Origin: Lentisphaerota bacterium
Lineage (GTDB): Bacteria > Verrucomicrobiota > Lentisphaeria > Victivallales > Victivallaceae
NCBI GenBank assembly: GCA_015061605.1
Contig: SUWH01000014.1
Location: 1 to 64,000, forward strand
Length of the DNA: 64,000 nucleotides
Direction: 5' to 3'
The stretch's first letter is position 1, and each line of letters starts with the position of its first letter. The translations under genes and the position numbers were made by a program. A model generated the notes under the pieces. The model was not told the origin of the DNA. It saw nothing but the letters and a program-made list of their open reading frames with translations, and did no database searches. This document shows, one piece after another, positions 193-16,272 of this stretch.

Positions 193-873
193 ATGGAAGC
201 AACAGTCAACACCACCGTCAGCAACGAAAACAAAGCCAAGCATAGAGCTCTCTATCACTACACCGCCGGATGGGAAAAAATCGCCGCCATTCTGATAAGC
301 GGAGTCATCAGCAAGGATTTCAAACTGCATGATGAACTTTCTCCGGCGGTTTGGTTTTCCACCAATCCACTGTGGGAAGGTTCTGCGATGAAGGTTTGCG
401 GCGGAGTAGAGCAGCATGCAGAAAAGCTCGGTGCGTTCCGCATCAAAATCAAAAGCAACGTTCCTGTCAGCACATGGGATGACTTTATCGGAGAAAACGA
501 AAAACACAAAAAATACTGCAGTTATCTTGAAACAATTGGGCGCAAACTTGGTGGGGATCCTGAGGAGTGGTACTACTCTGATGATCATATTTCCATTTAT
601 TCAGATTCTGTTGAGTCTATCGGCATCTACCAGAATGGAAAATGGCACGATATGAGTGTTGAAAATTTCTGGAAGAAGTTTTCTGACAACATCAGAGAAG
701 TTAAAATTGAGCCTGTCTCCCTGGCAATGATTGTAAAATTGCAGAAAACTGGCGCTGTTCTTTCTCCTATGTTTGAAAAAACTCTCAAACATATCGAAGA
801 AACCGGAAAAACGGAAAAAATCCTCCCGATCGCAATCGGAAAAATGATCCATTGCCTTTTCGTCAACAACTGA
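193..873 (+). CDS. ART-like HYT-motif protein
   Basis: This 226-aa protein of unknown function begins with ATG 8 bases after a clear AAGGAG site. Residues 21-24 read YHYT and residues 53-62 contain a WFSTNP stretch followed by W-E. That layout (H-Y-T near the N-terminus, a short helix, then a WFS-type strand) recurs in small uncharacterised bacterial proteins and resembles the H-x-T start of ADP-ribosyltransferase or RNA 2'-phosphotransferase-like folds. The fold assignment is inference from pattern alone. No signal peptide or membrane segment is seen. It lies 13 bases before the primase-helicase gene and is probably co-transcribed with it. A macrodomain gene, which would act on ADP-ribose, occurs about 12 kb away in the same accessory region. 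Confidence 0.6.
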   Translation: MEATVNTTVSNENKAKHRALYHYTAGWEKIAAILISGVISKDFKLHDELSPAVWFSTNPLWEGSAMKVCGGVEQHAEKLGAFRIKIKSNVPVSTWDDFIGENEKHKKYCSYLETIGRKLGGDPEEWYYSDDHISIYSDSVESIGIYQNGKWHDMSVENFWKKFSDNIREVKIEPVSLAMIVKLQKTGAVLSPMFEKTLKHIEETGKTEKILPIAIGKMIHCLFVNN

Positions 874-886
874 AAGTGTGTGAGCG

Positions 887-2950
887 ATGGTAAATATCAA
901 GATCGCTCAAGGTTATCTGCAGGCGGGATTAGCCGTCCTGCCTGCGGATAAAGTCCGTAAATGCCCCCTTTTACCCGGTTGGAAACGATATCAGGAGCAA
1001 CTGCCCACCGAACACGAAGTACACGCCTGGTTCAGCAATCAGCACAATGCGCTTTGCATCGTGTGCGGCAAAGTTTCCGGCAATCTGGAAGTCATCGACT
1101 TTGACAATCAGGGAGAACTTTATCCGGCGTGGTCTGAAAAGGTCCCGCCGGAACTTTTTTCCAAACTTGTCATTGAAAGGACACCTTCCGGCGGTTATCA
1201 CATTGCCTACCGCTGCATGGATGAGGTTTGCGGCAATATAAAATTGGCACAGGGCGAACGGGAGGGAAAACTTACAACACTCATTGAAACCCGGGGCAAT
1301 GGGGGCTTGATTCTCTGCGCTCCCGGCGATGGATATGAACTTATTCAAGGAGATTACACACAATTATCTGTATTGACTCCCGGGGAACGGGAAATCCTGC
1401 TCAATGCGGCTTGGCGTTTCGATGAAAAGCCGATGACGGGGAGTACAGCAGAGCCAACATTCCTGAACAGTACAACTGAAGAAACATTTGCAGACTGTTC
1501 CAGCGGAAGTTTTGCTCTTCGCCCCGGTGATGATTACGATACCCGCGGCGATGTCCGGGAAATTCTCATCAAACATGGCTGGACATCCTTGGGTTTCCGT
1601 GGTGACCGTGAGGATTGGAAACGCCCCAGCAAAGAAGGAAACGGCATATCTGCCACTTTGCAGAATGGTTACTTCTACGTCTTTTCCACCAACGCCGCAC
1701 CATTTGAAGCCAATCAGGGCTACGCTCCCCACCGGGTCTATGCTCTGTTGGAACATAACGGCGATTTCACGGCGGCGGCAAATGCCCTGATTGAACAAGG
1801 GTACGGTCAATCCAATCCCATTCTGGAAAATATCGATGAGATCGTGGCAAACCTGACCCATAAAAAAGAGAAGAAGAATGTGTTTACCGCAGCAGAACTG
1901 CTCCGCACATTTACTTCCCTCAATGAACCTGTAATCGATGGTCTTCTGCGAAGAACTGAAGTCATGAATGTGGTTGCCGCGCCCAAAACCGGCAAATCCT
2001 GGTTCATTCTGCAATTGGCATATTCGCTGGTAAAGGGATGGGATTTTCTGGGATTTCCCTGCAAACAATGCAGGGTGATGATCATGGATAATGAACTGCA
2101 CACATCTACGATCAGTTACCGGATGCAGAAAGTTTGTCAAAGTATGAGCATCAGCAAGGAAGATCCTGACCTGGAAAACCTTTCAGTTAATACACAACGG
2201 TTTGAGCGGCACAGTATTCCTGAAATCGTCAAAGTTGCCGAACAAATCAAAGAACAAGGTATTGATCTGGTCATCATTGATGCCCTTTACCGGGCATTAC
2301 CATCTGACGTGGATGAAAACAGCAACGGACAGATTACGCAGATGTACAACCAAATCGATACCTTTGCTCAAAAGTCCGGGGCGGCAGTGATCCTTGTCCA
2401 CCACACCAGTAAAGGTAATCAATCCGGCAAAGGTATCACCGATGTCGGTTCCGGTGCAGGTGCACAGTCCCGAGCCCCGGATACCCATTTGGTATTGCGG
2501 GCGCATCAGGAAAAGAATGCGGTGGTCGTGGGGTGCTGTGTGCGGAGTTTCCCTCCGGTTGATTCCTTCTGTCTGCGGAAGGATGAACACAACCTCTGGC
2601 ACAGAGCAGATGATCTTTCCCCGGATGATCTGGATGGCAAAGCGGAACTCACTCCAACCGGGGAAAAACGCAAAAAGACAGTCAATGAGGCGGCAATAAA
2701 GTTTTTTGAAGAACTTGGCTCAATGAAGTTCCCTATGCACAAAACACTTTTCATAACCGAGCTCAAAGAAAGATTGGATATTTCTATGGATAAAGCCCGT
2801 GCTCTCTGTGAAAAGCTGTTGGAATGTAAAATTCTGGAAGTACGCCCCGGTGATGGTGCAAATCAGCAGGCTGCAAAAAAAATCCATCTTGCACCCGGTA
2901 GTACAGTGAAAATCAACGAATTTATTCAAACCTATGGAGGTACAATATGA
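887..2950 (+). CDS. Prim-Pol primase fused to RepA-like helicase
   Basis: The 687-aa product probably primes and unwinds DNA for autonomous replication of a mobile element. The N-terminal third looks like a bifunctional primase-polymerase domain: an hhhDhD motif (IDFD, Asp71 and Asp73) and a following SGGYH motif near residue 105. The middle third is a RecA-fold ATPase of the RepA/AAA_25 type, with Walker A APKTGKS near residue 366, Walker B LVIIDAL near 462 and a VILVHHTSKG sensor stretch near 500. The last 90 residues are helical and charged and may form a winged helix. A weak ribosome-binding site suggests coupling to the upstream gene. The stop codon overlaps an orphan start (see findings). 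Confidence 0.88.
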   Translation: MVNIKIAQGYLQAGLAVLPADKVRKCPLLPGWKRYQEQLPTEHEVHAWFSNQHNALCIVCGKVSGNLEVIDFDNQGELYPAWSEKVPPELFSKLVIERTPSGGYHIAYRCMDEVCGNIKLAQGEREGKLTTLIETRGNGGLILCAPGDGYELIQGDYTQLSVLTPGEREILLNAAWRFDEKPMTGSTAEPTFLNSTTEETFADCSSGSFALRPGDDYDTRGDVREILIKHGWTSLGFRGDREDWKRPSKEGNGISATLQNGYFYVFSTNAAPFEANQGYAPHRVYALLEHNGDFTAAANALIEQGYGQSNPILENIDEIVANLTHKKEKKNVFTAAELLRTFTSLNEPVIDGLLRRTEVMNVVAAPKTGKSWFILQLAYSLVKGWDFLGFPCKQCRVMIMDNELHTSTISYRMQKVCQSMSISKEDPDLENLSVNTQRFERHSIPEIVKVAEQIKEQGIDLVIIDALYRALPSDVDENSNGQITQMYNQIDTFAQKSGAAVILVHHTSKGNQSGKGITDVGSGAGAQSRAPDTHLVLRAHQEKNAVVVGCCVRSFPPVDSFCLRKDEHNLWHRADDLSPDDLDGKAELTPTGEKRKKTVNEAAIKFFEELGSMKFPMHKTLFITELKERLDISMDKARALCEKLLECKILEVRPGDGANQQAAKKIHLAPGSTVKINEFIQTYGGTI

Positions 2951-4865: not shown

Positions 4866-5039
4866 ATGGCTGCAGCACAGGCTGTTAACCCAAATATTTC
4901 TATTGATGTCGTTCCGGAAAATCTCCGGCAGCTGGTTTCGCTTATTACATCAGTTATTCGCAGAATAAATGAAAAAGAACTGGATATATCCGGTAATAAG
5001 TGCTTGTATATAAACAACAACGAAAGGAGGTCTCTATAA
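4866..5039 (+). CDS. 57-aa leader ORF of recombinase operon
   Basis: A short ORF starts at ATG 4866 behind AGAAAGGA and ends in TAATG, so its stop shares a base with the start of the DUF2924 gene. The product is hydrophilic with a helical centre (LRQLVSLITSVIRRINEKE). I do not recognise it. Its good ribosome-binding site and the one-base overlap support a real, translationally coupled gene. The AAAGGAGG site for the next gene lies within its last codons. Confidence 0.6.
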   Translation: MAAAQAVNPNISIDVVPENLRQLVSLITSVIRRINEKELDISGNKCLYINNNERRSL

Positions 5040-5488
5040 TGGAAGATAAGACCGTTACTCAGCAGTTATTGCAACTGCGAACTTTATCCAAAGCCAGCTG
5101 CATCCGTAAATTTATTGAACTTTACGGATATGAGCCGAAACAGACTAAAAATGTTCCGGCTCTCCGCGCCCGGCTGGCTTTCCGCGTTCAGGAACTCCAC
5201 TACGGTGGGATCGCTGACAGCACCCGGCAGAAAATCAACGAGTATGCCGACAAAGACCCGATGGCGAACCTTTGCCGCACTCCCAAACCCGGCAGAACTC
5301 CTGTTCTGGGCAAACGCTATGTCCGGGAATGGGACGGTGTCCGTCACGAGGTCATTCTGCTGGAAGATGGCAGAGCCGAGTACAAGGGGCGGTTTTTCCG
5401 CTCGCTGACGGCGGTTGCCGACCACATCACCGGGACGCATATCAGCGGGTATGTGTTTTTTAATGTTCCGAGAGGTAAAAAGCAATGA
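5039..5488 (+). CDS. DUF2924 family protein
   Basis: The 149-aa protein matches the DUF2924 pattern: a helical start, a LYG motif, an RLAFRVQEL helix, then a conserved block with VREWDGVRHEV, a YKGRFFRSLTAVADHITGT run and a GYVFF end. DUF2924 genes are habitually found directly before large serine recombinases in phage-like and integrative elements, and that arrangement is seen here. Its biochemical role is unknown; a recombination directionality or DNA-binding accessory role is often guessed. An AAAGGAGG site 8 bases before the ATG fixes the start. It overlaps the recombinase gene by 4 bases (ATGA). Confidence 0.85.
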   Translation: MEDKTVTQQLLQLRTLSKASCIRKFIELYGYEPKQTKNVPALRARLAFRVQELHYGGIADSTRQKINEYADKDPMANLCRTPKPGRTPVLGKRYVREWDGVRHEVILLEDGRAEYKGRFFRSLTAVADHITGTHISGYVFFNVPRGKKQ

Positions 5489-6771
5489 GTAAAGAACAGA
5501 ACATAGTGCGGTGTGCCATCTACACCCGAAAAAGTACTGATGAAGGCTTGGAGATGGATTTCAACAGCCTTGATGCCCAGCGGGAAGCCTGCGAAAATTA
5601 CATCCGCAGTCAGGTGGCAAAGGGCTGGCAGATCCTGCCCGAGCGTTACGATGACGGCGGTTTTTCCGGAGGCAACACCAATCGCCCCGGCTTGCAGAAA
5701 CTTCTGGAAGATTGCAAACAGGGCAAGGTGGACATCATCGTTATTTATAAAATCGACCGTCTTTCCCGGTCATTATATGACTTTGCGGAGTTGAGCAAAC
5801 TCTTTGATGAATACAAAGTTGACTTCTGTTCGGTAACGCAGGAGATCAACACCAGCACCTCTGCGGGGCGGATGATGCTCAATATTTTAATGACCTTTTC
5901 TGAATTTGAACGCTCCATCGTGACCGAGCGCATTCGCGACAAAATGGCGGCGACCCGGCGCAAGGGCGAATGGGTGGGCGGCACAGTTCCCTGCGGTTAC
6001 AAGGTGGAAAATAAAAAACTTATCGTTGTTCCCGAGCGGGCAGAAGTGGTCAAAAGAGTGTTCAAACGCTTTATTGAGATCCAATCCCCAAAGCAGATCG
6101 CCTACGAACTCAATCAGGAGGGTATATTGACCAATCAAGGCAAGGAGTGGTCGGTGCATCACATTTACCGGATGCTCAATAATTACACCTACATCGGTAA
6201 AATTTATTATAAAGGGGAAGTTTTTGACGGCAAGCAGGAGCGCATCATTTCTGACAAACTCTGGGAACGGACACAGGAAATACTGCAATCAGATGCCCCG
6301 GTAAAAGATTTCAAAGGCAAAGTGGAAACGCTTATGCCGCTGAAAGGTTTGCTTTACTGCGGGCATTGCGGTTGCCGCATGGGACCAACGTATGCGAAAA
6401 AAGGCGATATTATGTATTCCTATTACCTTTGCACCAAGGACAGCAAGCGGTCTGAATCACTTTGTCCGGTAAGCCGGGTTTCGGGTGGTGAAATTGAGGC
6501 TGCGGTTTTGACACACATTAAAAAAATGCTTTGCACGCCGACAATTGTCAATCAGCTTGCCCGGAATTTGAATACACCCGGCAAGGATGTGGCAGAAGTG
6601 CTGAATAAACTTACGCCGCTGTGGGATGAAATGTTTCCGGCAGAACGCAATCGCCTGATGCACTTGCTGCTGAAAAAGGTAACGCTTTACGAAGATCACC
6701 TTGACCTTGATATCCGCACCGCCGGAGTTGAACAGATATTGGAGGAGCTTGATTATGAAAACCTTGATTGA
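5485..6771 (+). CDS. Large serine recombinase
   Basis: This 428-aa site-specific recombinase has a resolvase catalytic domain (residues about 7-150) with the nucleophile Ser17 in YTRKSTDEG, the GGFSGGNTNRPGL segment and IYKIDRLSRS. A Recombinase domain follows (about 170-280), then a four-cysteine zinc ribbon (LLYCGHCGCRM, later CTKDS and LCPVS, about 290-330). It probably integrates and excises the element by cutting both strands through a phosphoserine link. It is at the short end for large serine integrases, with little coiled-coil between the ribbon and C-terminus. It overlaps DUF2924 by 4 bases and the next gene by 17. Confidence 0.93.
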   Translation: MSKEQNIVRCAIYTRKSTDEGLEMDFNSLDAQREACENYIRSQVAKGWQILPERYDDGGFSGGNTNRPGLQKLLEDCKQGKVDIIVIYKIDRLSRSLYDFAELSKLFDEYKVDFCSVTQEINTSTSAGRMMLNILMTFSEFERSIVTERIRDKMAATRRKGEWVGGTVPCGYKVENKKLIVVPERAEVVKRVFKRFIEIQSPKQIAYELNQEGILTNQGKEWSVHHIYRMLNNYTYIGKIYYKGEVFDGKQERIISDKLWERTQEILQSDAPVKDFKGKVETLMPLKGLLYCGHCGCRMGPTYAKKGDIMYSYYLCTKDSKRSESLCPVSRVSGGEIEAAVLTHIKKMLCTPTIVNQLARNLNTPGKDVAEVLNKLTPLWDEMFPAERNRLMHLLLKKVTLYEDHLDLDIRTAGVEQILEELDYENLD

Positions 6772-7150
6772 ACCCTTGGAAGACGGCAATACCCGCATCC
6801 GGATACCCATTGAATTCCGTTATGATAACGGCCGCAAGCGGATATACTTTCCGGAGATGCCCGATGTACACTTGCAAATCAATGAGCCGCTTGCTACTGG
6901 AATCGCCCGAGCCTATCGCTGGCAGGAGTTGCTGGACAATGGAGAATATGATTCCCCCGAAGCCTTGGCTGAAGCATTGGGAGTTCACACCTCCTATGTT
7001 CGGCGTTTTCTGCGCCTTGCCCTGCTCGCTCCACCGATCGTAGATGCCATCTTTGCCGGGAAAGCCCCATGGACACTATCGCTCACCAAACTCGACACCA
7101 CCTTGCCCTATTCGTGGAAAGAACAAATGGAACTTTTCGGAATGTTGTAA
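6755..7150 (+). CDS. ParB-like HTH protein of recombinase operon
   Basis: The product is 131 aa. The ATG at 6755, inside the end of the recombinase gene, is preferred because GGAGGAG lies just upstream. After a beta-rich first half, residues about 68-110 form an HTH (SPEALAEALGVHTSYVRR) followed by a LLAPPIVDAIFAGKAPWTLSL stretch like the DNA-binding region of ParB/KorB-type proteins. Small HTH genes of this kind often follow DUF2924-recombinase pairs and may control excision. That role is inference. The gene ends before a hairpin, facing the giant helicase gene. Confidence 0.75.
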   Translation: MKTLIEPLEDGNTRIRIPIEFRYDNGRKRIYFPEMPDVHLQINEPLATGIARAYRWQELLDNGEYDSPEALAEALGVHTSYVRRFLRLALLAPPIVDAIFAGKAPWTLSLTKLDTTLPYSWKEQMELFGML

Positions 7151-7156
7151 AAACAT

Positions 7157-7198
7157 AACTCCGGTAGTGATGTGCAAAAGCATATCTTTGCCGGAGTT
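7157..7198 (+). terminator. Hairpin after recombinase operon
   Basis: AACTCCGG at 7157-7164 pairs perfectly with CCGGAGTT at 7191-7198. The loop contains a smaller stem (ATGTGC with GCATAT, one wobble). There is no long T-run, so it may be a weak terminator or a recombination/structure site. The remaining 78 bases to the helicase stop codon show nothing else. Confidence 0.4.
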
Positions 7199-7276
7199 TA
7201 ATCGTATTCAATTAAGTCTTCCATGTTGCACAACAGTACTTGGGCGAGCAAGGCAAGTGTTCAACGATGTATGCGG

Positions 7277-10200
7277 TTAAATTTTGCCACTTTTTTGTAA
7301 TGCTGCAAAACCGTATTCAAGGAATCTCCGGGCTTTAGCAGTCACAGCGGATAATCCGAACAGTTTGACTGTTTCCCGGAAAAGTGTGTCTTTTTCGCAG
7401 GAATTAAAATCTATTAACACTTCGTACATAGCGTTTGCCAGTTCTTCCGGGGGGATTTCATCGATTGCACGTTTGGTTTCATCGCTGCTTCCGACACGAT
7501 AAACGCTGTAACTTGCAGCGGTTTGTTCTGTTGACCAGAACACCCGATCTTCACCATGTTGAGTTGTTTCCAATTCTAGCGGAAGGCATTCATCCAATAC
7601 TCTTTGAATATTACCTCCTGTACGACTGAATCCCCACGCTCTTGCGATACGCCGTTTAAGCAGATTTTCATATATTGGAGCTTCTTGGGTAATGACTTCA
7701 GCGATTTGTTGCTTAATGATTTTCCGTCCAGAGAACTCGTAAAAATCCTCCTGATTCAAATAATGCAAATTAGTCCAAATATGGTACTCTTTACGATTTT
7801 CGGAAATCGCTTGTGGAGTTTCTGATGCATATTGTGATGACTCTGATTCTGTTACCGGTATATCTTTGCTGGGTTCTTCTGAAGCAACAGAGGTGATATT
7901 GGAAAGTTCCGTTGAAGACTCCATTGCTTTTTCAATGACATCCAGCAGCGTATTTTCTGCCCGTTCACGGTCAAAAGTCCAATCAACACTCCAAGCTCGA
8001 TAAGTGTGCCATCCCAGACCTTTCAACACCTGGTGACGCAGGTTATCGCGGTCACGCGTAGTCTTTTGAGCAGCGTATGCGGTATTATCACACTCGATAC
8101 CCAACAAAAATTCTTCCGGTCTTTCCGGATGCCGTAGTGCCAAATCTATGCGGAAGCCGGAACAACCGACATTACGTTCAACGGTATAGCCTTTGCCGAT
8201 AAGGAACTCGGCAATTTCATCCCGCAAGCCATCGACATTATTTTCAGAATTAAAATCAGAATAAATATTGACTTTTTTCTCTGCATAATCGAGGAAATAC
8301 TTCAAGTGAGCCGCTCCAACGGCATTAGTGCGGGACAATTCTATCTGATTGGCGTGAATGCTGGAAAATACCACTACCTGCTCTTTGGCACGGGTGATCG
8401 CCACATTGAGCCGCCGTTCTCCACCCTGCCGGTTCAACGGCCCGAAATTCATTGAAAATTTTCCGTTAGCATCAGGAGCATATCCAATGGAGAAAAGAAT
8501 GACATCACGTTCATCTCCCTGGACATTCTCCAGATTTTTGACAAACAGCGGTTCTTCCTGGGTATCACTGAAATATGATTCCAATGCCGGATGTTTGGAG
8601 CGTTCTTTTTCCACGAGGTCTTCGATAAGATCTTTCTGAGCCTGACTGAATGTTACTACGCCGATTGAACGGTAATTGCCGTTGGCGCATTCCAACCGGT
8701 CAAATATATATTTTACCAGTGCTTCAGCTTCTTTGCGGTTGGTTCTGCTTGCTTTGCGATCATAAATACCATCGGGGACAAATTCAAAGCGGATGCCAAG
8801 CTTTTCAGTATTACGAGCCGCCGGGAATGTATATAAACGATCTTCGTAATAATGATGATTACTGAATGCGATCAATGATTCATGACGGCTACGATAATGC
8901 CAGTTCAAATGTGTTGAATGAACTCCGGCAACAATACACTCGTCAAGAATGCTTTCCAGATCCTCGGTATCTTCCGGTGTACTGTCATCACTTTCATTTT
9001 CACCTTTCTGGAAAAAGTTGGTCGGCGGCATCTGTTTCGGATCTCCTACAACGATCAACTGTTTGCCACGTGCAATCACTCCGATTGCATCCCATACCGG
9101 TATTTGCGATGCTTCGTCAAATACGATCAAATCGAAAGCTGCATTGTCTGCGGGCAGATATTGAGCCACGGACAATGGACTCATCAGAAAACACGGTTTC
9201 AAAACAGGAGCAAGGGTCGGTATCTGTTCCAACAATGTCCGCACTGGTTTTTGGCGGGCGCGTTTTTCACATTCCCGCTTGAGAATCCCCAGCTCTGTAC
9301 CTTCGGGGCATGGACCGGAGCGGCGGCGGGGTAAGTTCGCTGCGAGTTTGGCAAAGATCAATTTTTTGGTCAACGTCATATATCTAGCATCGAATAAAGT
9401 GAATTTTTTTATCCGGTCATTTTGAGCAGAACCGCTGAATTGACAAAGCAGTGGTGATTTTCCCAAAATCTGATTCAGCATATTTTTGAAAAACAGAGTA
9501 TCGTAAAATTGGGCAAATTTTTCTGAAATGCCACCATTTTCAAGCATTGAAACCAATGCTGCCAATCCGCTTGCATTGACCTCCGCTCGCAGATTTCGAT
9601 AACGCAGCATATTTCGCAAATGCGGTATATGGGCAATGATCTTTTGAATTTTTTCCAGCAGGACATCAACATCTGTAACAGTAGTTGATGAACTTGCATA
9701 TTCTGCAAACTTTTGCAATTTTGCCTGAAAATCGTTCCATGCCTCAAGCATATTATTGATTGCTTCACGCAACATGGAGTCCCTGCTGCATTTCCGTGAA
9801 ACATCAGGCATCAAATCCTGCAGCTTGAACAGGACAGCCTGTTTGGCTTTATCATCAAAGCGGCAAATTGTTTGAACCTGATCAAGAATAGCTTTGCACT
9901 GTTCGATTTTACGGCTCAAGCCATCCCAATTAGTACTTTCTCCATCCCACTGTTTTCCTAATAAGGTACTTGCTTTTTCTTTGCCATTTTCATATGATTT
10001 AAGGCAATCAATATATTGCCGGGCATCAGGGATAAGTGCTTTCAGTTCTGGAATTGAAAGTTTTACACCGCCGCTTTTTTTCAAAGAAGAGAGTTCTTTG
10101 AGTAAAGCATTATTTTTAAAGAATTTTATTAGGAAAAAAGCGGCTTCATTCAGGGCAATACGTTCTTCTATGCCGGGAAAATCAAATTCAGTAAAGGTTT

Positions 10201-13099
10201 CCAAACGATAATTTTTCAGTTTTTCCTTTAAGATTGTGAGATTTCTGGCATTTTCTGCGTATGAAGCAATGAAATCCATTTTTTCCGGGAATTCGTCACA
10301 GAAAAATGCGCCCGGTATATCTTCACTGGTTTTTACGGCTTCCAAAAGCACTGCAGTTTGATAAATTATATTGATATCTTTGAGATCCTGCAATGAAAAA
10401 TTTTCTGCTGCAGTTTTCAGATTCCGTTTCAAATTGTCAATCGCTGATATGAGCTCTTTCGCGACAGACGATAAATTGTTTTCAGTAACCGGACTCCATT
10501 GCAAAGCATCAAGCATTTCCAGCGCCTGTAAACTTTCGGCAGAAATATGCTGTCGGGCTTCAGTCAAATCTATGAATTTTTGCCGGGCATTGACACAATT
10601 CTCATAGGATTGGGTAAGGAAATCAGCATCAAGCGTAACATCATCAACTGTAATATGCTTCTGAAGGCTCATCAGGTGAGTAAAGCAATCATAGGCAGAA
10701 TAGCCGTTAGGATATTGTCGGTGCAGTTCATTGACATAATCATCGAGTTCTTTCCGCAATGAAGTTAATGTGGCAACGGTATTTTCCCATTCCGCAGGAA
10801 TTCCGATATCAGCTGTTTGCAACGCTTCATTGAATTGTGCCAGAACTTCCGATTTCCCGGATTTATTTGAGTGCAATTCCAAACAAAACGGTTTCAAGCC
10901 GATTTGAGACAACCTTTTATGGACAACATCCAAAGCGGCTTTTTTTTCTGAAACAAACAATACTCTTTTTCCCAATGCCAAATTATGTGCGATAATATTG
11001 GTAATGGTTTGTGATTTGCCTGTTCCAGGCGGTCCATGCAAAACAAAGCTCTTCCCCATTTCGGAATAGAGAACCGCAGCCAGCTGTGACGAGTCGGCAC
11101 TGACCGGGCAATAGAGGCGGGATAAATCCAAATGTTCACTGATTTTTTCAGGTGGAAATACTTCAATGTTATCATCAAAGAGTCCACTTCCGGAAATCAG
11201 GTGTGCAATCAGAGGGGTCTCTTTCAATACATCAATCCGGGCTGTCATATCATTCCACATGACAAATTTGCCAAAAGAAAAATGTCCGATACGGGCTTCT
11301 TCCCGGACTTCCCAGCCTTTCATATCTTTGATGGCCTGTCTGAAAATTTGCATCACCAACGCAACATCCACACCGGAATCGTCTGTCGGCAGAGGTGATA
11401 TGCCGGGAATAGTCAAGTGGTATTGGCTGCGAAGCAGTTCCAATAATGTTTCATTGATGATAGTTTCGCCATCTACGCGTGAAAGTTTGATACCTTCATT
11501 TATTGATTTACGCTGCAATCGAACCGGCAGCAAAAGAATGGGAGCAAGGTATGATTTTTCATCGCGCTCAGAAACTTTCCACTCCACAAAACCGATTGCC
11601 AGATACAAGGTGTTAACGCCGCCTTCTTCCAAATCAGTTTTACCTTGGCGGTAAAGGGCTGTCAGACGGCGAATCATTTCATTCGGCGGCAACATTGTCC
11701 ATAGCCGTTGCTGACCGAGTTCGCGCTCAAGCAAAACCTTGATTTCCGGTTTTACATCGCTGTTCCGCAGCATGGTCAAATCATGCAGATCTTTTTCACC
11801 AAGCAAATTCGGCAGAGAATTGAGAGTCAGAGCTTCATTATCTGCAATTTTATCTTCAAGAATGGTTATATCCGGACAGGCAATCGGAATAATAAACTTG
11901 GTATCCCGTACATTCAAAAGCCGATTACGCAGAGATAAGTCAAGTAATTTATTTGTCCACCGTACTACTCTTGCCGGTTGACTATTTTCATTACTTAGTT
12001 GTGATAAATCGATTTCTTTTTCCAAGCGACGCGCTTGTTCTGCTTCCTGTTCAGCAACTTTACGGTCAATTGGAACAAATTCAACGCCATTTACACTGCG
12101 TTTTAATGGCAGTGGTCTGATTCCGCTGTAACGGGCGCGGATCACATCAATAGCACACTCAAATTCTCCGTCAATATTCAAATGCTCCATCCGTGCCGCA
12201 GCTTCTGCTTCCGCGAAAGAAGAATCACCCGTAACCATTGTAGTTTCGATAACCAGAAACTCATCCAAATCAGCAAGTTTGCGAATCGTTTGCAAGTCAT
12301 CCATGGGAATATCCGGGAAATACCGTTCAACCAGATGGCATCCTACATAAGCATGACCTTTTTGCAGCATAATTACCGGATGTAATCCGCAAGACTCCAT
12401 AACCGATGCAAACAGAATTGCCGTATCCAGACAAGTTCCCAGCTTATACTGGTAAACAGCATCTGCAAAGCGGATCCTTTGACCGGGAGTGCCGAATGAG
12501 GAAGCCGGATTGGAATAGTTGATTCCCCAGTTATGAATTGCCCGGTAAATTGCTGCACAAATTTCATAAACCCGTTTTTTATCTGCCTGATATCCTTGAA
12601 CAGATGCACTGCCGGTGGCACGTTCCAATTCGTGAGCAACGGAACTTTGCAAATGAGCAACAACATCCAAATTCGGTGTAACAAAAGATGTCAGCAGTTC
12701 CGGCATGATTTGCATACCGAGCCACTGGTCAGGAGCAAAGGCTTCACACTCAAAATCTTTCTGGAAAAGTATCTGGTTGCCATCGCTGATTTCCAGCTTT
12801 AATTTTCCCTTCATACTTTCAGAAATGGCAGACAACAAATTGTAGTTAAGCTCAATGTCAGGCTTGTTGATGCAAAGTTCTTCCCCCGCTTTGACCTTGC
12901 TTACCGGAAGGGATTTCTCATGGATAAATTCCGGAACAGCAGAAAAACGGCATTCCAAATTTTCGATATCATTAACAGTGTTATTGATGAGCTTTAATTC
13001 ATATACCACAGGAATGGCATTTTGCTGTAATGCCAAATTGAAAAGCGGTACAAAAGCAAGCTCTGCTGAAAAGATATTTTCCACTGTATCAGTAGCCAT
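7277..13099 (-). CDS. DUF4011 helicase-nuclease, candidate defence protein
   Basis: This 1940-aa protein fits the DUF4011/superfamily-1 helicase/Vsr-like nuclease/DUF3320 architecture reported as a single-gene anti-phage system type (Hhe-like). Residues 215-255 carry a transglutaminase-like Cys...His pair (GTCLDTAIL, GHAYVG). Walker A HGPPGTGKS is near residue 690 and Walker B FDEAS near 1325, separated by an unusually long helical insert of about 630 residues. Helicase motifs NWHYRSRHE and VAITRAKEQ follow (near 1570). A Vsr/DUF559-type nuclease is at about 1640-1740 (FRIDLAL, GIECDN), and DUF3320 ends the protein. I took MATD at 13099 as the start because GGAGG precedes it. It has its own promoter and reads toward the recombinase. 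Confidence 0.88.
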   Translation of the reverse strand: MATDTVENIFSAELAFVPLFNLALQQNAIPVVYELKLINNTVNDIENLECRFSAVPEFIHEKSLPVSKVKAGEELCINKPDIELNYNLLSAISESMKGKLKLEISDGNQILFQKDFECEAFAPDQWLGMQIMPELLTSFVTPNLDVVAHLQSSVAHELERATGSASVQGYQADKKRVYEICAAIYRAIHNWGINYSNPASSFGTPGQRIRFADAVYQYKLGTCLDTAILFASVMESCGLHPVIMLQKGHAYVGCHLVERYFPDIPMDDLQTIRKLADLDEFLVIETTMVTGDSSFAEAEAAARMEHLNIDGEFECAIDVIRARYSGIRPLPLKRSVNGVEFVPIDRKVAEQEAEQARRLEKEIDLSQLSNENSQPARVVRWTNKLLDLSLRNRLLNVRDTKFIIPIACPDITILEDKIADNEALTLNSLPNLLGEKDLHDLTMLRNSDVKPEIKVLLERELGQQRLWTMLPPNEMIRRLTALYRQGKTDLEEGGVNTLYLAIGFVEWKVSERDEKSYLAPILLLPVRLQRKSINEGIKLSRVDGETIINETLLELLRSQYHLTIPGISPLPTDDSGVDVALVMQIFRQAIKDMKGWEVREEARIGHFSFGKFVMWNDMTARIDVLKETPLIAHLISGSGLFDDNIEVFPPEKISEHLDLSRLYCPVSADSSQLAAVLYSEMGKSFVLHGPPGTGKSQTITNIIAHNLALGKRVLFVSEKKAALDVVHKRLSQIGLKPFCLELHSNKSGKSEVLAQFNEALQTADIGIPAEWENTVATLTSLRKELDDYVNELHRQYPNGYSAYDCFTHLMSLQKHITVDDVTLDADFLTQSYENCVNARQKFIDLTEARQHISAESLQALEMLDALQWSPVTENNLSSVAKELISAIDNLKRNLKTAAENFSLQDLKDINIIYQTAVLLEAVKTSEDIPGAFFCDEFPEKMDFIASYAENARNLTILKEKLKNYRLETFTEFDFPGIEERIALNEAAFFLIKFFKNNALLKELSSLKKSGGVKLSIPELKALIPDARQYIDCLKSYENGKEKASTLLGKQWDGESTNWDGLSRKIEQCKAILDQVQTICRFDDKAKQAVLFKLQDLMPDVSRKCSRDSMLREAINNMLEAWNDFQAKLQKFAEYASSSTTVTDVDVLLEKIQKIIAHIPHLRNMLRYRNLRAEVNASGLAALVSMLENGGISEKFAQFYDTLFFKNMLNQILGKSPLLCQFSGSAQNDRIKKFTLFDARYMTLTKKLIFAKLAANLPRRRSGPCPEGTELGILKRECEKRARQKPVRTLLEQIPTLAPVLKPCFLMSPLSVAQYLPADNAAFDLIVFDEASQIPVWDAIGVIARGKQLIVVGDPKQMPPTNFFQKGENESDDSTPEDTEDLESILDECIVAGVHSTHLNWHYRSRHESLIAFSNHHYYEDRLYTFPAARNTEKLGIRFEFVPDGIYDRKASRTNRKEAEALVKYIFDRLECANGNYRSIGVVTFSQAQKDLIEDLVEKERSKHPALESYFSDTQEEPLFVKNLENVQGDERDVILFSIGYAPDANGKFSMNFGPLNRQGGERRLNVAITRAKEQVVVFSSIHANQIELSRTNAVGAAHLKYFLDYAEKKVNIYSDFNSENNVDGLRDEIAEFLIGKGYTVERNVGCSGFRIDLALRHPERPEEFLLGIECDNTAYAAQKTTRDRDNLRHQVLKGLGWHTYRAWSVDWTFDRERAENTLLDVIEKAMESSTELSNITSVASEEPSKDIPVTESESSQYASETPQAISENRKEYHIWTNLHYLNQEDFYEFSGRKIIKQQIAEVITQEAPIYENLLKRRIARAWGFSRTGGNIQRVLDECLPLELETTQHGEDRVFWSTEQTAASYSVYRVGSSDETKRAIDEIPPEELANAMYEVLIDFNSCEKDTLFRETVKLFGLSAVTAKARRFLEYGFAALQKSGKI

Positions 13100-13126
13100 A
13101 AAGTTCCTCCGGATATTACGCAATAT

Positions 13127-13155
13127 ATTATATCATACGAGGAGTACATTTGCAA
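13127..13155 (-). promoter_or_regulatory. Promoter of giant helicase gene
   Basis: Read on the - strand, TTGCAA (13155-13150) and a perfect TATAAT (13132-13127) are separated by exactly 17 bases. The -10 box lies 28 bases before the chosen start codon. It is a sigma70-type promoter by pattern. Confidence 0.75.
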
Positions 13156-13245
13156 ATCAAAAAACAAGATAGCTCTAAAATTTATTGGCAATATAACTTT
13201 TAAAAACCAGAAATAATAATTAATTATATCCATGCAATCAGCCAA

Positions 13246-13755
13246 TCAAGTTTCAACTCTCGATTTTGCGTAGATTGCACGGTAGATTTCGGCGTCGGAG
13301 TCGGAGAAGCAGCAGAAAATCACTTTTTCTATTGGAGCAGAAATGTTGCTCAAAACTGTTTCAATGGCGATTTGTGCCGCCTGTTCTTTGGGGAAGTGAT
13401 AGACTCCGGTTGAAATGCAGGGAAACGCAACCGTTTTGCAGTTGTTTTCTTTTGCCAGAGCCAGTGAGTTAATGTAGCAGTTTTTCAGAAGTTCTGCTTC
13501 GTTGCACTTGCCGCCGTGCCAGACCGGGCCGGGAGTATGGATAACGAACTTGGCGGGCAATTTGAATCCGGGCGTGATGCGGGCTTCGCCGGTTTCGCAA
13601 CCGTTGAATTTACGGCAGGCTTCAAGCAATTCCCGACCTGCCGCCCGGTGGATCGCTCCATCTACGCCACCGCCGCCCAGAAGCGAACAGTTGGCGGCAT
13701 TAACAATGGCATCAACTTTCAATTCGGTGATGTCGGCAGTTATTATTTCGATCAT
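13246..13755 (-). CDS. Macrodomain (ADP-ribose binding) protein
   Basis: The 169-aa protein is a single macrodomain of the YmdB/O-acetyl-ADP-ribose deacetylase type. It shows IVNAAN (Asn19, Asn22), the [10 protein letters not shown] phosphate-binding loop, and [11 protein letters not shown] near residue 118. Such enzymes bind ADP-ribose and remove it, or its acetyl ester, from targets. It starts 8 bases after the stop of the HTH-AAA-nuclease gene with its own AAGGTG site, so the two form an operon. In this context it may neutralise an ADP-ribosylation-based toxin or sense an NAD-derived signal, which is inference. Confidence 0.9.
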
Positions 13756-13763
13756 GATTCACC

Positions 13764-15626
13764 TTACTTCTTTGCTATTTCCACTTTCTTCCCGCTGAAC
13801 GCAACGCCGTATTTGAAAATAGGAGCGATTTGACGGGATTTCATTATGGTATCGTATTGTTTTTCTTCAATTTGGGTCAATGCCTCTTGTGCTAACTGCC
13901 GGAGTTGTTCAGCCGAAGCATCTTTGGCGGCTTTCAATTCGATAAGGATACCCGGCAGATTTCCGCTTTTCGGCGTCAGAGCTATGTCGTATCTGCCTGT
14001 ACCGGATTCACGGTTGGAGGTGATTTCGTAACGATTATCCAAAATTACGCACAACCCCAGAACCAATCCGTGATAGAAGTTTTCATGAGCCGTGTCAAAA
14101 TTGCTTACCGATTCCAGCAGAAGTTTTTGCAACAGGTTCTGCAACGCGGTGCTGTTTCCGGAATAAATCGCTTCCTGAATACTGATCGCTGTTGATTGCG
14201 GAATGATGTCGGTCAACTTTTGCAGGATCTCCTTGTTGTAAACATAGGCGATCTCCTTATTCGGAAGGGCAACTTCGCACATAAAATCCCCGTTGAATGA
14301 CGGTTCGACTTTGGTGATTTTCAAATATCCCGCCACTAGCAGAAAACTGTAAACAGATGACGGATTGTTCTTTATCTGCGGATAAATCACACTGGGGTCG
14401 ATGTAAGTCAAAACGGATTTTCCCTGGAGCAATTGATTGAGTTTTTCATAAATGGACTCATCCGCATTGGTCAGAACTTCGCCGATGATCTCATTATTTC
14501 CGGTGGATTGCCAGAAAGCTCTGGGTTCGCACTCGTTGCTGAAATAGTTGATAACGGACCACGGATTGAAGATTTCCGACTTGCCGAAACGGTATCCATC
14601 GTACCAGGCACAAATTTCATCGTACTTATCTTCCGCTTTGTAGTAACGTGCCATTTCCTTGACTTCATCCGGCGTGAATCCGAAATACTGACTGTATTTG
14701 TTTTCAAGGATCGTATTGATTTTAGGGTTGTTCAGACCGCTGAAAATACTCTCCTTTGCCACCCGCAGAATTCCGGTCAGAAAACCGTAAGAAAGATGCT
14801 TATTATCTTTCAAGCCTCCGGAGAAAAGATTACGCATAAAGCGGATGACGGAATCATAAAATCCACGCATATATCCCTGCTGGATAGGGGTGTCGTATTC
14901 ATCGACAATGATAATTGGAGCAATACCGTAGTGTTTGTCTAGCATTTCAGAAAGGGTCGCAAATGCCGCCATACAATCATTTTCATCAGCTTTACCATCC
15001 AAAAAATCTTTTATTTTCTGCTTATCATATGCGTTGAGGGCAGGACTTTCCAGCAATTCGAGATGGCGTTCAAATTCTTTCTGCAACAGTTTGTAAATAT
15101 TACCGTAAGTATCTTGCCACGTTTCGCATTTGACATCTTTGAAAGAAACAAAAATCACCGGATATTTCCCCTGATAATCCCGGTATTTCTGACCGCACGC
15201 CCAAATCTTTTTGTTTTTGAAATAGACAGAAGTATCTTCATCGCTCTTCTCAAAAAAGGTGCGGAGCATATCCATATTGAGGGTTTTTCCGAAACGGCGG
15301 GGACGGGTGAACAAAGAAACCATGGGGCGTTCATCCAGAAAATCCTTGATGAGCATGGTTTTGTCGATGTAATAATATTCTGTCGAAGCAAGACGGTAAT
15401 CAGAAATACCAATGGGCAACGGCAGATTTTCCGGCAAAGATGTTTTTGCATAAACTCCGCTGCGGATACGCTGGTCGGTCGGTTTGGGCGTTCCAACAGG
15501 AATCATCCATGCTTTACCCATTTTGCGAGCTCGGGCAATTTTTCCCTGCTTGCACAATTCAGACACCCGGCGGGGAGTCAATCCCCAAAGGGCTGCCGCA
15601 TCTTTAACTTTCATCATATCCGCCAT
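13764..15626 (-). CDS. HTH-AAA ATPase-PD-(D/E)XK protein
   Basis: The product is 620 aa. The start at 15626 has AGGAG six bases upstream; an earlier in-frame start is unlikely. Residues 1-50 are a MerR-like or excisionase-like HTH (KVKDAAALWGLTPRRVSELC), ending in a wing (KMGKAWMIPVG). Residues 60-400 are an AAA-ATPase-like domain: RPRRFGKTLN near 112 is the P-loop variant and IIIVDEYDTP near 240 is Walker B. The C-terminal 100 residues are a PD-(D/E)XK nuclease-like domain (GRYDIAL, then ILIELKAAKDA near 555). AAA/PDDEXK_9 proteins are common in gut anaerobes and have no settled function. The HTH and the repeated sites in its promoter suggest autoregulation. Confidence 0.87.
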   Translation of the reverse strand: MADMMKVKDAAALWGLTPRRVSELCKQGKIARARKMGKAWMIPVGTPKPTDQRIRSGVYAKTSLPENLPLPIGISDYRLASTEYYYIDKTMLIKDFLDERPMVSLFTRPRRFGKTLNMDMLRTFFEKSDEDTSVYFKNKKIWACGQKYRDYQGKYPVIFVSFKDVKCETWQDTYGNIYKLLQKEFERHLELLESPALNAYDKQKIKDFLDGKADENDCMAAFATLSEMLDKHYGIAPIIIVDEYDTPIQQGYMRGFYDSVIRFMRNLFSGGLKDNKHLSYGFLTGILRVAKESIFSGLNNPKINTILENKYSQYFGFTPDEVKEMARYYKAEDKYDEICAWYDGYRFGKSEIFNPWSVINYFSNECEPRAFWQSTGNNEIIGEVLTNADESIYEKLNQLLQGKSVLTYIDPSVIYPQIKNNPSSVYSFLLVAGYLKITKVEPSFNGDFMCEVALPNKEIAYVYNKEILQKLTDIIPQSTAISIQEAIYSGNSTALQNLLQKLLLESVSNFDTAHENFYHGLVLGLCVILDNRYEITSNRESGTGRYDIALTPKSGNLPGILIELKAAKDASAEQLRQLAQEALTQIEEKQYDTIMKSRQIAPIFKYGVAFSGKKVEIAKK

Positions 15627-15659
15627 AATAATCTCCTGAAAGGTTCTGTTCACAAAGAT

Positions 15660-15766
15660 ATTATACCACACTTGCGGAACAATGTCAAGCAGAGATACGG
15701 AATAATTCCGTAAAAATGCGGAACAATGTCAATTTGTTTTGATATTATTCCGAATATTATTCCGAA
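15660..15766 (-). promoter_or_regulatory. Promoter inside CGGAAYAAT operator array
   Basis: On the - strand TTGACA (15688-15683) and TATAAT (15665-15660) are 17 bases apart, a consensus promoter for the HTH-AAA-nuclease gene. The area carries repeated half-sites: TGCGGAACAATGTCAA at 15673-15688 and again at 15717-15732, the perfect palindrome TACGGAATAATTCCGTA at 15696-15712, and a tandem 12-mer TATTATTCCGAA at 15743-15754 and 15755-15766. All share CGGAAYAAT or its complement. One copy overlaps the -35 box and spacer, which suggests repression. Confidence 0.8.
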
Positions 15767-15908
15767 ACAGGGAATTTTATGCTGAAAATTGCCAGATGAT
15801 TTGGGAGTAAAAATCAAATGCCCACCCTTAAAACGGATGGTCAGAATTGTTGTGCCCTCTTACTCGATTTGAGGAACGCTTATCACCTCCACCAATCGCC
15901 ACCATTAG

Positions 15909-15932
15909 ACATAACTTCATCCGAAGTTATGT
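15909..15932. repeat. Perfect hairpin ACATAACTTC
   Basis: ACATAACTTC at 15909-15918 and GAAGTTATGT at 15923-15932 form a perfect 10-bp stem with an ATCC loop. Read on the - strand the arm ACATAACTTCGG resembles the sequences at 26-38 and 7152-7164. It may mark a junction between accessory and core DNA. The rest of 15767-16003 shows no gene. Confidence 0.5.
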
Positions 15933-16003
15933 TTAAGTGGCGAATACTCCTCCATATATTGCCCGCGAAGCGCCGCTGCTTACATCATCCGGTTTTGAAC
16001 GCT

Positions 16004-16132
16004 GCGTGCCTGTCGGCACGCACGTTTTGCCTGCGCAAAACAAATCTGACAAAATCACTTTTTCAAAATCCAATTTTCTTCCGCTGAAAAATTAAAAAAC
16101 AGGGATTTTTCCGGTTTTATGGGATATCTGTG
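16004..16132. repeat. Dispersed intergenic repeat, copy 1
   Basis: The segment from 16014 is recognisably the same as 33681-33802, about four-fifths identical by eye over ~120 bases. Both share CACGTTTTGCCTGCGCAAAA, a central TCACTTTTTCAAAA stretch and TTTTATGGGA near the end. It includes a perfect hairpin GTTTTGC-CTGC-GCAAAAC (16024-16041). Copy 1 has an additional 7-bp hairpin GCGTGCC/GGCACGC at 16004-16021. Neither copy is coding. Confidence 0.75.
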
Positions 16133-16152
16133 CATTTTTTTCTCAAACCTGC

Positions 16153-16196: not shown

Positions 16197-16272
16197 GCGA
16201 GTGTAACTCAGCTGGTAGAGTATCACGTTGCCAACGTGACTGTCGCCGGTTCGAATCCGGTCACTCGCTCCA
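16197..16272 (+). tRNA. tRNA-Gly(GCC)
   Basis: A 76-base cloverleaf can be drawn. The acceptor GCGAGTG pairs with CACTCGC, the D stem ACTC pairs with GAGT, the anticodon stem TCACG pairs with CGTGA around loop TTGCCAA (anticodon GCC), and the T loop is GGTTCGAATCC. The discriminator base is T and CCA is encoded. hrpA starts 29 bases later. Confidence 0.96.

Follow-up and report, generated by a model that had tools for sequence, protein, structure and literature searches.

Do three adjoining genes beside a recombinase module in a Lentisphaerota bacterium act together as one defence system? The genes lie in a stretch of 64,000 nucleotides (hereafter the window; contig SUWH01000014.1 of assembly GCA_015061605.1, forward strand) and encode a ProA-family helicase-nuclease, a macrodomain protein and an AAA-ATPase with a nuclease domain (AAA-nuclease). 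A sequence-only reading had suggested that they could be either one multi-part system or two systems side by side. In place of a three-part system, our analysis arrives at a simpler, testable picture: very probably the trio does not form a single system, its genes being exchangeable cargo next to a serine-recombinase module, and ProA, which belongs to a known family of single-gene defence proteins, acts against phage by itself.

Layout of the genes and the element

The source genome (2.56 Mb in 52 contigs) is 88.7% complete. Because the window begins at base 1 of its contig (C50), the left end of the element lies out of view. The features of the locus are as follows.

193–873, plus strand: supposed "ART-like" protein, no family found
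887–2950, plus strand: primase-polymerase/AAA_25 protein of the element, by domain match
5000–5488, plus strand: DUF2924 protein of the recombinase module, 112.4 bits
5485–6771, plus strand: large serine recombinase (Resolvase, Recombinase, Zn_ribbon_recom; phrog_95 integrase)
6701–7150, plus strand: 149-aa ORF ending the recombinase module (phrog_14161), followed by a hairpin, identified by eye, that ends near 7199
7277–13099, minus strand: ProA-family protein, 1940 aa, ATG start (a longer TTG ORF reaches 13123)
13127–13155, minus strand: promoter-like site of ProA, TTGCAA-17-TATAAT (10/12), with TG before the -10 element
13246–13755, minus strand: MacroD-type macrodomain protein, 169 aa, macrodomain 167.7 bits
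13764–15626, minus strand: HTH – AAA-ATPase_like – PDDEXK_9 protein (DUF1703 type), 620 aa, ATG start
15657–15765, minus strand: promoter TTGACA-17-TATAAT (15688–15660, 12/12) with operator-like repeats ATTGTTCCG / CGGAATAAT
16197–16272, plus strand: tRNA-Gly(gcc), followed by an hrpA-like gene

Three adjoining minus-strand genes do occupy 7277–15626, as the sequence-only reading had described, and the module beside them is that of a serine recombinase, with its DUF2924 and large serine recombinase genes paired at 5000–6771. The starts had to be revised: ATG 13099 for ProA and ATG 15626 for the AAA-nuclease, each preceded by a GGAGG/AGGAG-type site, are the likely ones, not those of the longer TTG and GTG frames.

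The gap between the macrodomain and AAA-nuclease genes is 8 bp, and the two may share a transcript. ProA starts 146 bp beyond the macrodomain gene, with its own sigma70-like site between them, and the same arrangement can be read from the sequence before the ProA gene of locus L004, described below. A single promoter-like site is weak evidence, because the sigma70-like scan as a whole returned 26 sites where shuffled sequence gave 17.4 (sd 4.3). A single operon spanning the trio was considered and is disfavoured by ProA's own promoter-like site and by the arrangement in L004.

On the right, the tRNA-Gly and the gene after it, taken as hrpA from its sequence, probably mark the host side. None of ten element and cargo proteins was found in the DNA examined before tRNA-Gly–hrpA in two other genomes (G092 and G073); the contig of a third (G392) offers only about 240 bp before its tRNA-Gly, too short to judge insertion. 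A CpaF-like gene adjoins tRNA-Gly in G092, and its counterpart in the window's own genome lies on contig C6 (49348–51066). As to possible attachment ends, the right-hand similarity stops near 15892, and the left end lies beyond the contig start. A block at 15823–15892 is common to the window, L135 and L138 and stops at GAGGAACG, past which the flanks diverge; this point is possibly the edge of the mobile cargo. Separately, 16016–16137 is a dispersed intergenic repeat, with one copy in G092 and numerous incomplete ones in G414, a related genome; most of the 33 matches listed lie in this interval.

Domains and distribution of ProA

The first gene product scores 1963.1 bits against the NCBIfam model NF058533, "anti-phage protein ProA" (cut-off 1500), covering model positions 1–1902 of 1903, and 1280 bits against PADLOC PDC-S37. 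A probable defence gene beside a mobile module had been suggested earlier, and the protein indeed scores higher than the threshold curated for a named family of anti-phage proteins; it is from this family name that we infer a function in defence. Membership of Hhe (NF042953), the label first given to this gene, was rejected at 816.3 bits against an equivalog cut-off of 2000. The literature searched yielded no study of an anti-phage role for ProA; a study of P. aeruginosa hotspots describes a DUF4011 gene as a core flank of a defence hotspot (PMC10250203). The parts of the window protein, all on the minus strand, are:

12731–13081: N-terminal beta-sandwich, residues 7–123
12095–12721: transglutaminase-like (TGL) domain as predicted, residues 127–335, with C223, H249 and E285
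11432–11950: DUF4011 domain, above the Pfam cut-off
8363–11095: SF1 helicase core (AAA_11 / AAA_12), above the Pfam cut-offs
7937–8221: REase_MTES_1575 (Vsr-like) nuclease, 96.1 bits
7604–7747: DUF3320 domain, above the Pfam cut-off

Every domain of the architecture read earlier, from DUF4011 through helicase and Vsr-like nuclease to DUF3320, thus exceeds its Pfam cut-off. An alignment of 26 sequences shows the catalytic motifs of both helicase and nuclease to be intact in the window protein. The helicase has a Walker A motif at residues 689–698 and a Walker B-like FDEASQ at 1327–1332; FDEASQ and the G-K-S of Walker A are kept in 26/26 sequences, Q697 and T698 in 24/26. The nuclease residues are D1652, E1669-C-D1671 and R1684, and D1652 is retained in 25 sequences, E1669 in 23, and D1671 and R1684 in all 26. 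Most likely, the DUF4011/SF1 helicase would engage incoming DNA and run along it, and the Vsr-like nuclease would cut that DNA.

Residues 1–335 form a further N-terminal part, absent from the sequence-only reading, and shallow-alignment models assign a TGL fold to residues 127–335. A Cys-His-Glu triad is kept in the ProA alignment (C223 in 31/35, H249 and E285 each in 32/35), E285 being the presumed third residue. Pfam Transglut_core reaches 16.4 bits on the window protein, below its cut-off of 23, and PDB sequences searched with a profile of the N-terminus yielded no match. With the whole N-terminus, Foldseek returned three matches under E 0.001, including transglutaminase 2, for which the rmsd of 18.3 is poor; with the TGL domain alone it returned none under that value. 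The TGL assignment is drawn from weak sequence scores and shallow-alignment models.

The TGL domain has no match in 12 of 46 ProA-like loci, L056 and L057 included. Some of the loci without it share 58–59% identity over the remainder, and at least one of the 12 (L073) reflects only a cut-off at a contig end.

The TGL domain is probably an additional enzyme of the cysteine protease or amidase type, which would have a protein as its target and act after the helicase has engaged. We consider it possible, if rather unlikely, that ProA is a three-enzyme defence protein that, in addition to translocating on DNA and cutting it, uses an active TGL cysteine enzyme to cleave or modify a protein of the host or the phage. 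If this were true, TGL action would be triggered once the helicase meets foreign DNA, with proteolysis or deamidation as part of the response, and, since some related proteins do without the domain, it would be an add-on effector. The literature searched contained no report of a TGL domain in ProA, and such an enzyme domain has apparently not been described in this protein before.

In the phylum sample, 31 of 387 genomes exceed the NF058533 cut-off. Among 72,556 plasmid records, 324 match at E 1e-50, and in 58 a match covers 80% or more of the protein. Neither ProA nor the AAA-nuclease, queried directly, had a relative in IMG/VR; a search with the N-terminal ProA alignment found four loci there. 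Phage records gave 1 match among 50,697.

To what extent do these genes keep the company seen in the window? We assembled 40 ProA stretches: 29 came from the 30 other genomes that exceed the cut-off, all but G084 being used, and 11 from genomes that fall short of it; together with L004 and L005 they make 41 distinct loci, L005 and L023 being on the same contig. In the flanking DNA examined, none of the 41 had a macrodomain or an AAA-nuclease (tblastn, E 1e-4). Flanks were counted for 40 loci, leaving out L005/L023, which has almost no flank: upstream DNA reaches 1.2 kb or more in 33 and 3 kb or more in 30, and 23 loci have 3 kb or more to either side. As contigs often stop near ProA, the absence of partners is firm for many loci, not all; the closest relative, L004, has only 1.25 kb upstream, and L051, of the same genus, 0.39 kb. 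Both partners were equally absent from eight further viral or plasmid stretches (L196–L203; 0/8), which include near-copies, L198 duplicating L197 in its match and L203 resembling L200. Clustering of neighbouring ORFs over 46 ProA loci found no family in more than five.

In L004, which comes from a close relative, a ProA gene 89% identical to the window's lies between a tRNA-Glu and a gene that, in our reading, is RNase Y-like. Similarity to the window ends at 7285 and 13171, that is, it spans the ProA gene plus about 70 bp, and the genome has no DNA match to window positions 13246–16002 at E 0.001, a search that a diverged copy would escape. The 89% identity is not proof of transfer, because the RNase Y-like protein is itself 93% identical.

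These neighbourhoods bear directly on the proposal that ProA, the macrodomain and the AAA-nuclease act together as one multi-part defence system. The three genes adjoin on one strand of one element, and two nucleases and a macrodomain could have a common task. Nevertheless, the proposal now appears very improbable, given the 41 ProA loci with no partner in the flanking DNA examined, the separate promoter-like site of ProA, the L004 genome, where ProA is 89% identical but neither partner has a DNA match, and the occurrence of the AAA-nuclease/macrodomain pair without ProA in another genome, G373. The survey of homologue neighbourhoods that the sequence-only reading had itself put forward therefore turned out largely against linkage.

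Macrodomain, AAA-nuclease and their slot

The macrodomain assignment was correct: besides its domain score, the protein reaches 234.9 bits against NF001664 (cut-off 200) and matches MACROD2 in the PDB at E 4.5e-53. Macrodomain matches occur in at least 147 of the 387 genomes, and no PADLOC family matches the window protein at E 0.01. Its likely role would be that of a MacroD-type ADP-ribose hydrolase carried downstream of the AAA-nuclease.

A second ADP-ribose-related fold had been read in the protein at 193–873. Searches of Pfam, PADLOC, NCBIfam and PHROGs gave no match to this protein at E 0.01, the top hit among PDB sequences is at E = 0.23, no relative was found on viral contigs, and it is present in 1 of 120 genomes, its own; the ART fold was dropped. 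PADLOC includes DarTG models in its library, and at E 0.01 no DarT or DarG family there matches either this protein or the macrodomain. By position the two genes belong to the same stretch, as a DarTG-like toxin/antitoxin split across the element would require, but they are 12 kb apart on opposite strands, and with a MacroD-type macrodomain lacking any PADLOC match and a presumed partner that matches no ART family, such a split is exceedingly improbable.

The AAA-nuclease had been read as an HTH-AAA-PD-(D/E)XK protein. AAA-ATPase_like (137.3 bits) and PDDEXK_9 (66.6 bits) are both over their cut-offs, HTH_17 is borderline at 27.5 bits against 27, and Walker A, DEYD, RYD and ELK motifs are present. 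A search that scored no more than three candidates in each genome found matches at E 1e-20 in 36 of 387 genomes and matches covering the HTH in six.

Its promoter is overlain by repeats: TTGACATTGTTCCG occurs twice (0.02 expected), and there are five CGGAATAAT-like copies, a number that 0 of 60 shuffles reach. Similar repeat units precede homologues in L135, L139, L140 and L141, and the homologue on a Butyrivibrio plasmid (L204) has a different, seven-copy array upstream, again reached by 0 of 60 shuffles. Among seven upstream regions, those of the window, L135 and L204 stood above all shuffles, the first two belonging to near-identical genes and not being independent. Taken singly, those of L139, L140 and L141 are weak (reached by 3, 2 and 1 of 60 shuffles), and the L142 region has no array above shuffles (44/60 reach it). 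The operator-like array suggests that the AAA-nuclease, as a unit separate from ProA, probably represses its own promoter through its HTH.

Is it a defence gene at all? That the AAA-nuclease is instead a selfish or mobile-element gene is a serious possibility, though short of probable. DUF1703 genes are reported to have expanded in Cardinium with transfer and recombination, in a study that gives their role as undetermined (PMC6387759). The window protein has no PADLOC match, and 42 plasmid records match it at E 1e-20. On the other hand, its own genome has only two PF09820 matches, and the operator-like units are kept before single genes with differing flanks.

The AAA-nuclease/macrodomain pair, noted earlier in the window, recurs in G373 (L135), where the two proteins are 96% and 91% identical to the window's. 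There the macrodomain gene directly follows the end of the recombinase module (window position 7199), so that the ProA slot is empty, and the genome (93% complete) has no ProA match. The module end has 92% DNA identity to 6978–7199 and the remaining recombinase region is unmatched; the empty slot is thus seen in this one genome, over 222 bp of matching module end. Between the AAA-nuclease and the macrodomain lie about 460 bp, in which there is a 117-aa ORF.

In G144 (L136), the ProA slot holds an unrelated 253-aa ORF, an AAA_14-DUF4143 ATPase (PADLOC PDC-S01, 353 bits) lies upstream of the macrodomain, and ProA is located on a different contig from the macrodomain. The DNA similarity of the window with G373 and with G144 stops at 7199. 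In G293 and G299, the operator region stands directly before the macrodomain, with no AAA-nuclease between. Since the contents of the slot differ in three genomes, we regard them as exchangeable cargo. The hrpA products of G373 and G144 are 62% identical to the window's, against 89–96% for the cargo, which points to transfer.

The G373 contig (C43) continues from the pair into DISARM genes, a setting that also speaks for the earlier suggestion of a probable defence gene beside a mobile module. PADLOC labels there (L135 9760–14015; L218 101–17834) are DrmMII, DrmA/DrmD, DrmMI, DrmA, DrmB and DrmC, the labels DrmA and DrmD falling on one protein (1438 and 1418 bits), and the set is accompanied by PDC-S39, PDC-S64 and a protein with a weak match to pAgo. 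In G373 the element also has a HARE-HTH gene followed by a Zeta_toxin-like gene (L135 3611–4618).

These observations also bear on the proposal of two systems, in which ProA would stand beside an AAA-nuclease/macrodomain module, the macrodomain serving to undo or restrict an ADP-ribose signal linked with the AAA-nuclease. The 8 bp gap in the window, the same gene order at 96% and 91% identity in G373 despite the 62% of hrpA, and the contig shared with DISARM genes speak for such a module. We nonetheless consider it unlikely: among the places listed, the two genes lie within 5 kb in only 2 of the 36 AAA-nuclease genomes (its own and G373), only two of the six HTH-bearing AAA-nucleases have a macrodomain nearby, the macrodomain occurs without an adjoining AAA-nuclease in G144, G293 and G299, and the intervening ORF parts the pair in G373.

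Comparison with known systems

Reading the locus as exchangeable cargo with a stand-alone ProA draws attention to the transglutaminase-like enzyme domain predicted in ProA and to the probable self-regulation signal before HTH-bearing DUF1703 genes. These two features are the ones that deserve further work.

ProA of NF058533 is the closest known counterpart of the first gene: the match is whole-length, the gene stands singly in annotated plasmid stretches, and no decisive difference was found; the model name does not mention the TGL domain predicted in the window protein. The likeness to Hhe (NF042953 / PADLOC Hhe) extends over the helicase-nuclease-DUF3320 part. Positions 10–1537 of the 1550 in PDC-S37 match residues 386–1947 of the longer ORF, and this model omits the beta-sandwich and TGL part present in the window protein. 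The AAA-nuclease shares both domains and motifs with DUF1703 proteins, to which it adds the N-terminal HTH and the operator-like array. The macrodomain resembles MACROD2 and the E. coli-type O-acetyl-ADP-ribose deacetylase, as its PDB match and its ISTGVY stretch indicate; here it is carried beside a recombinase module.
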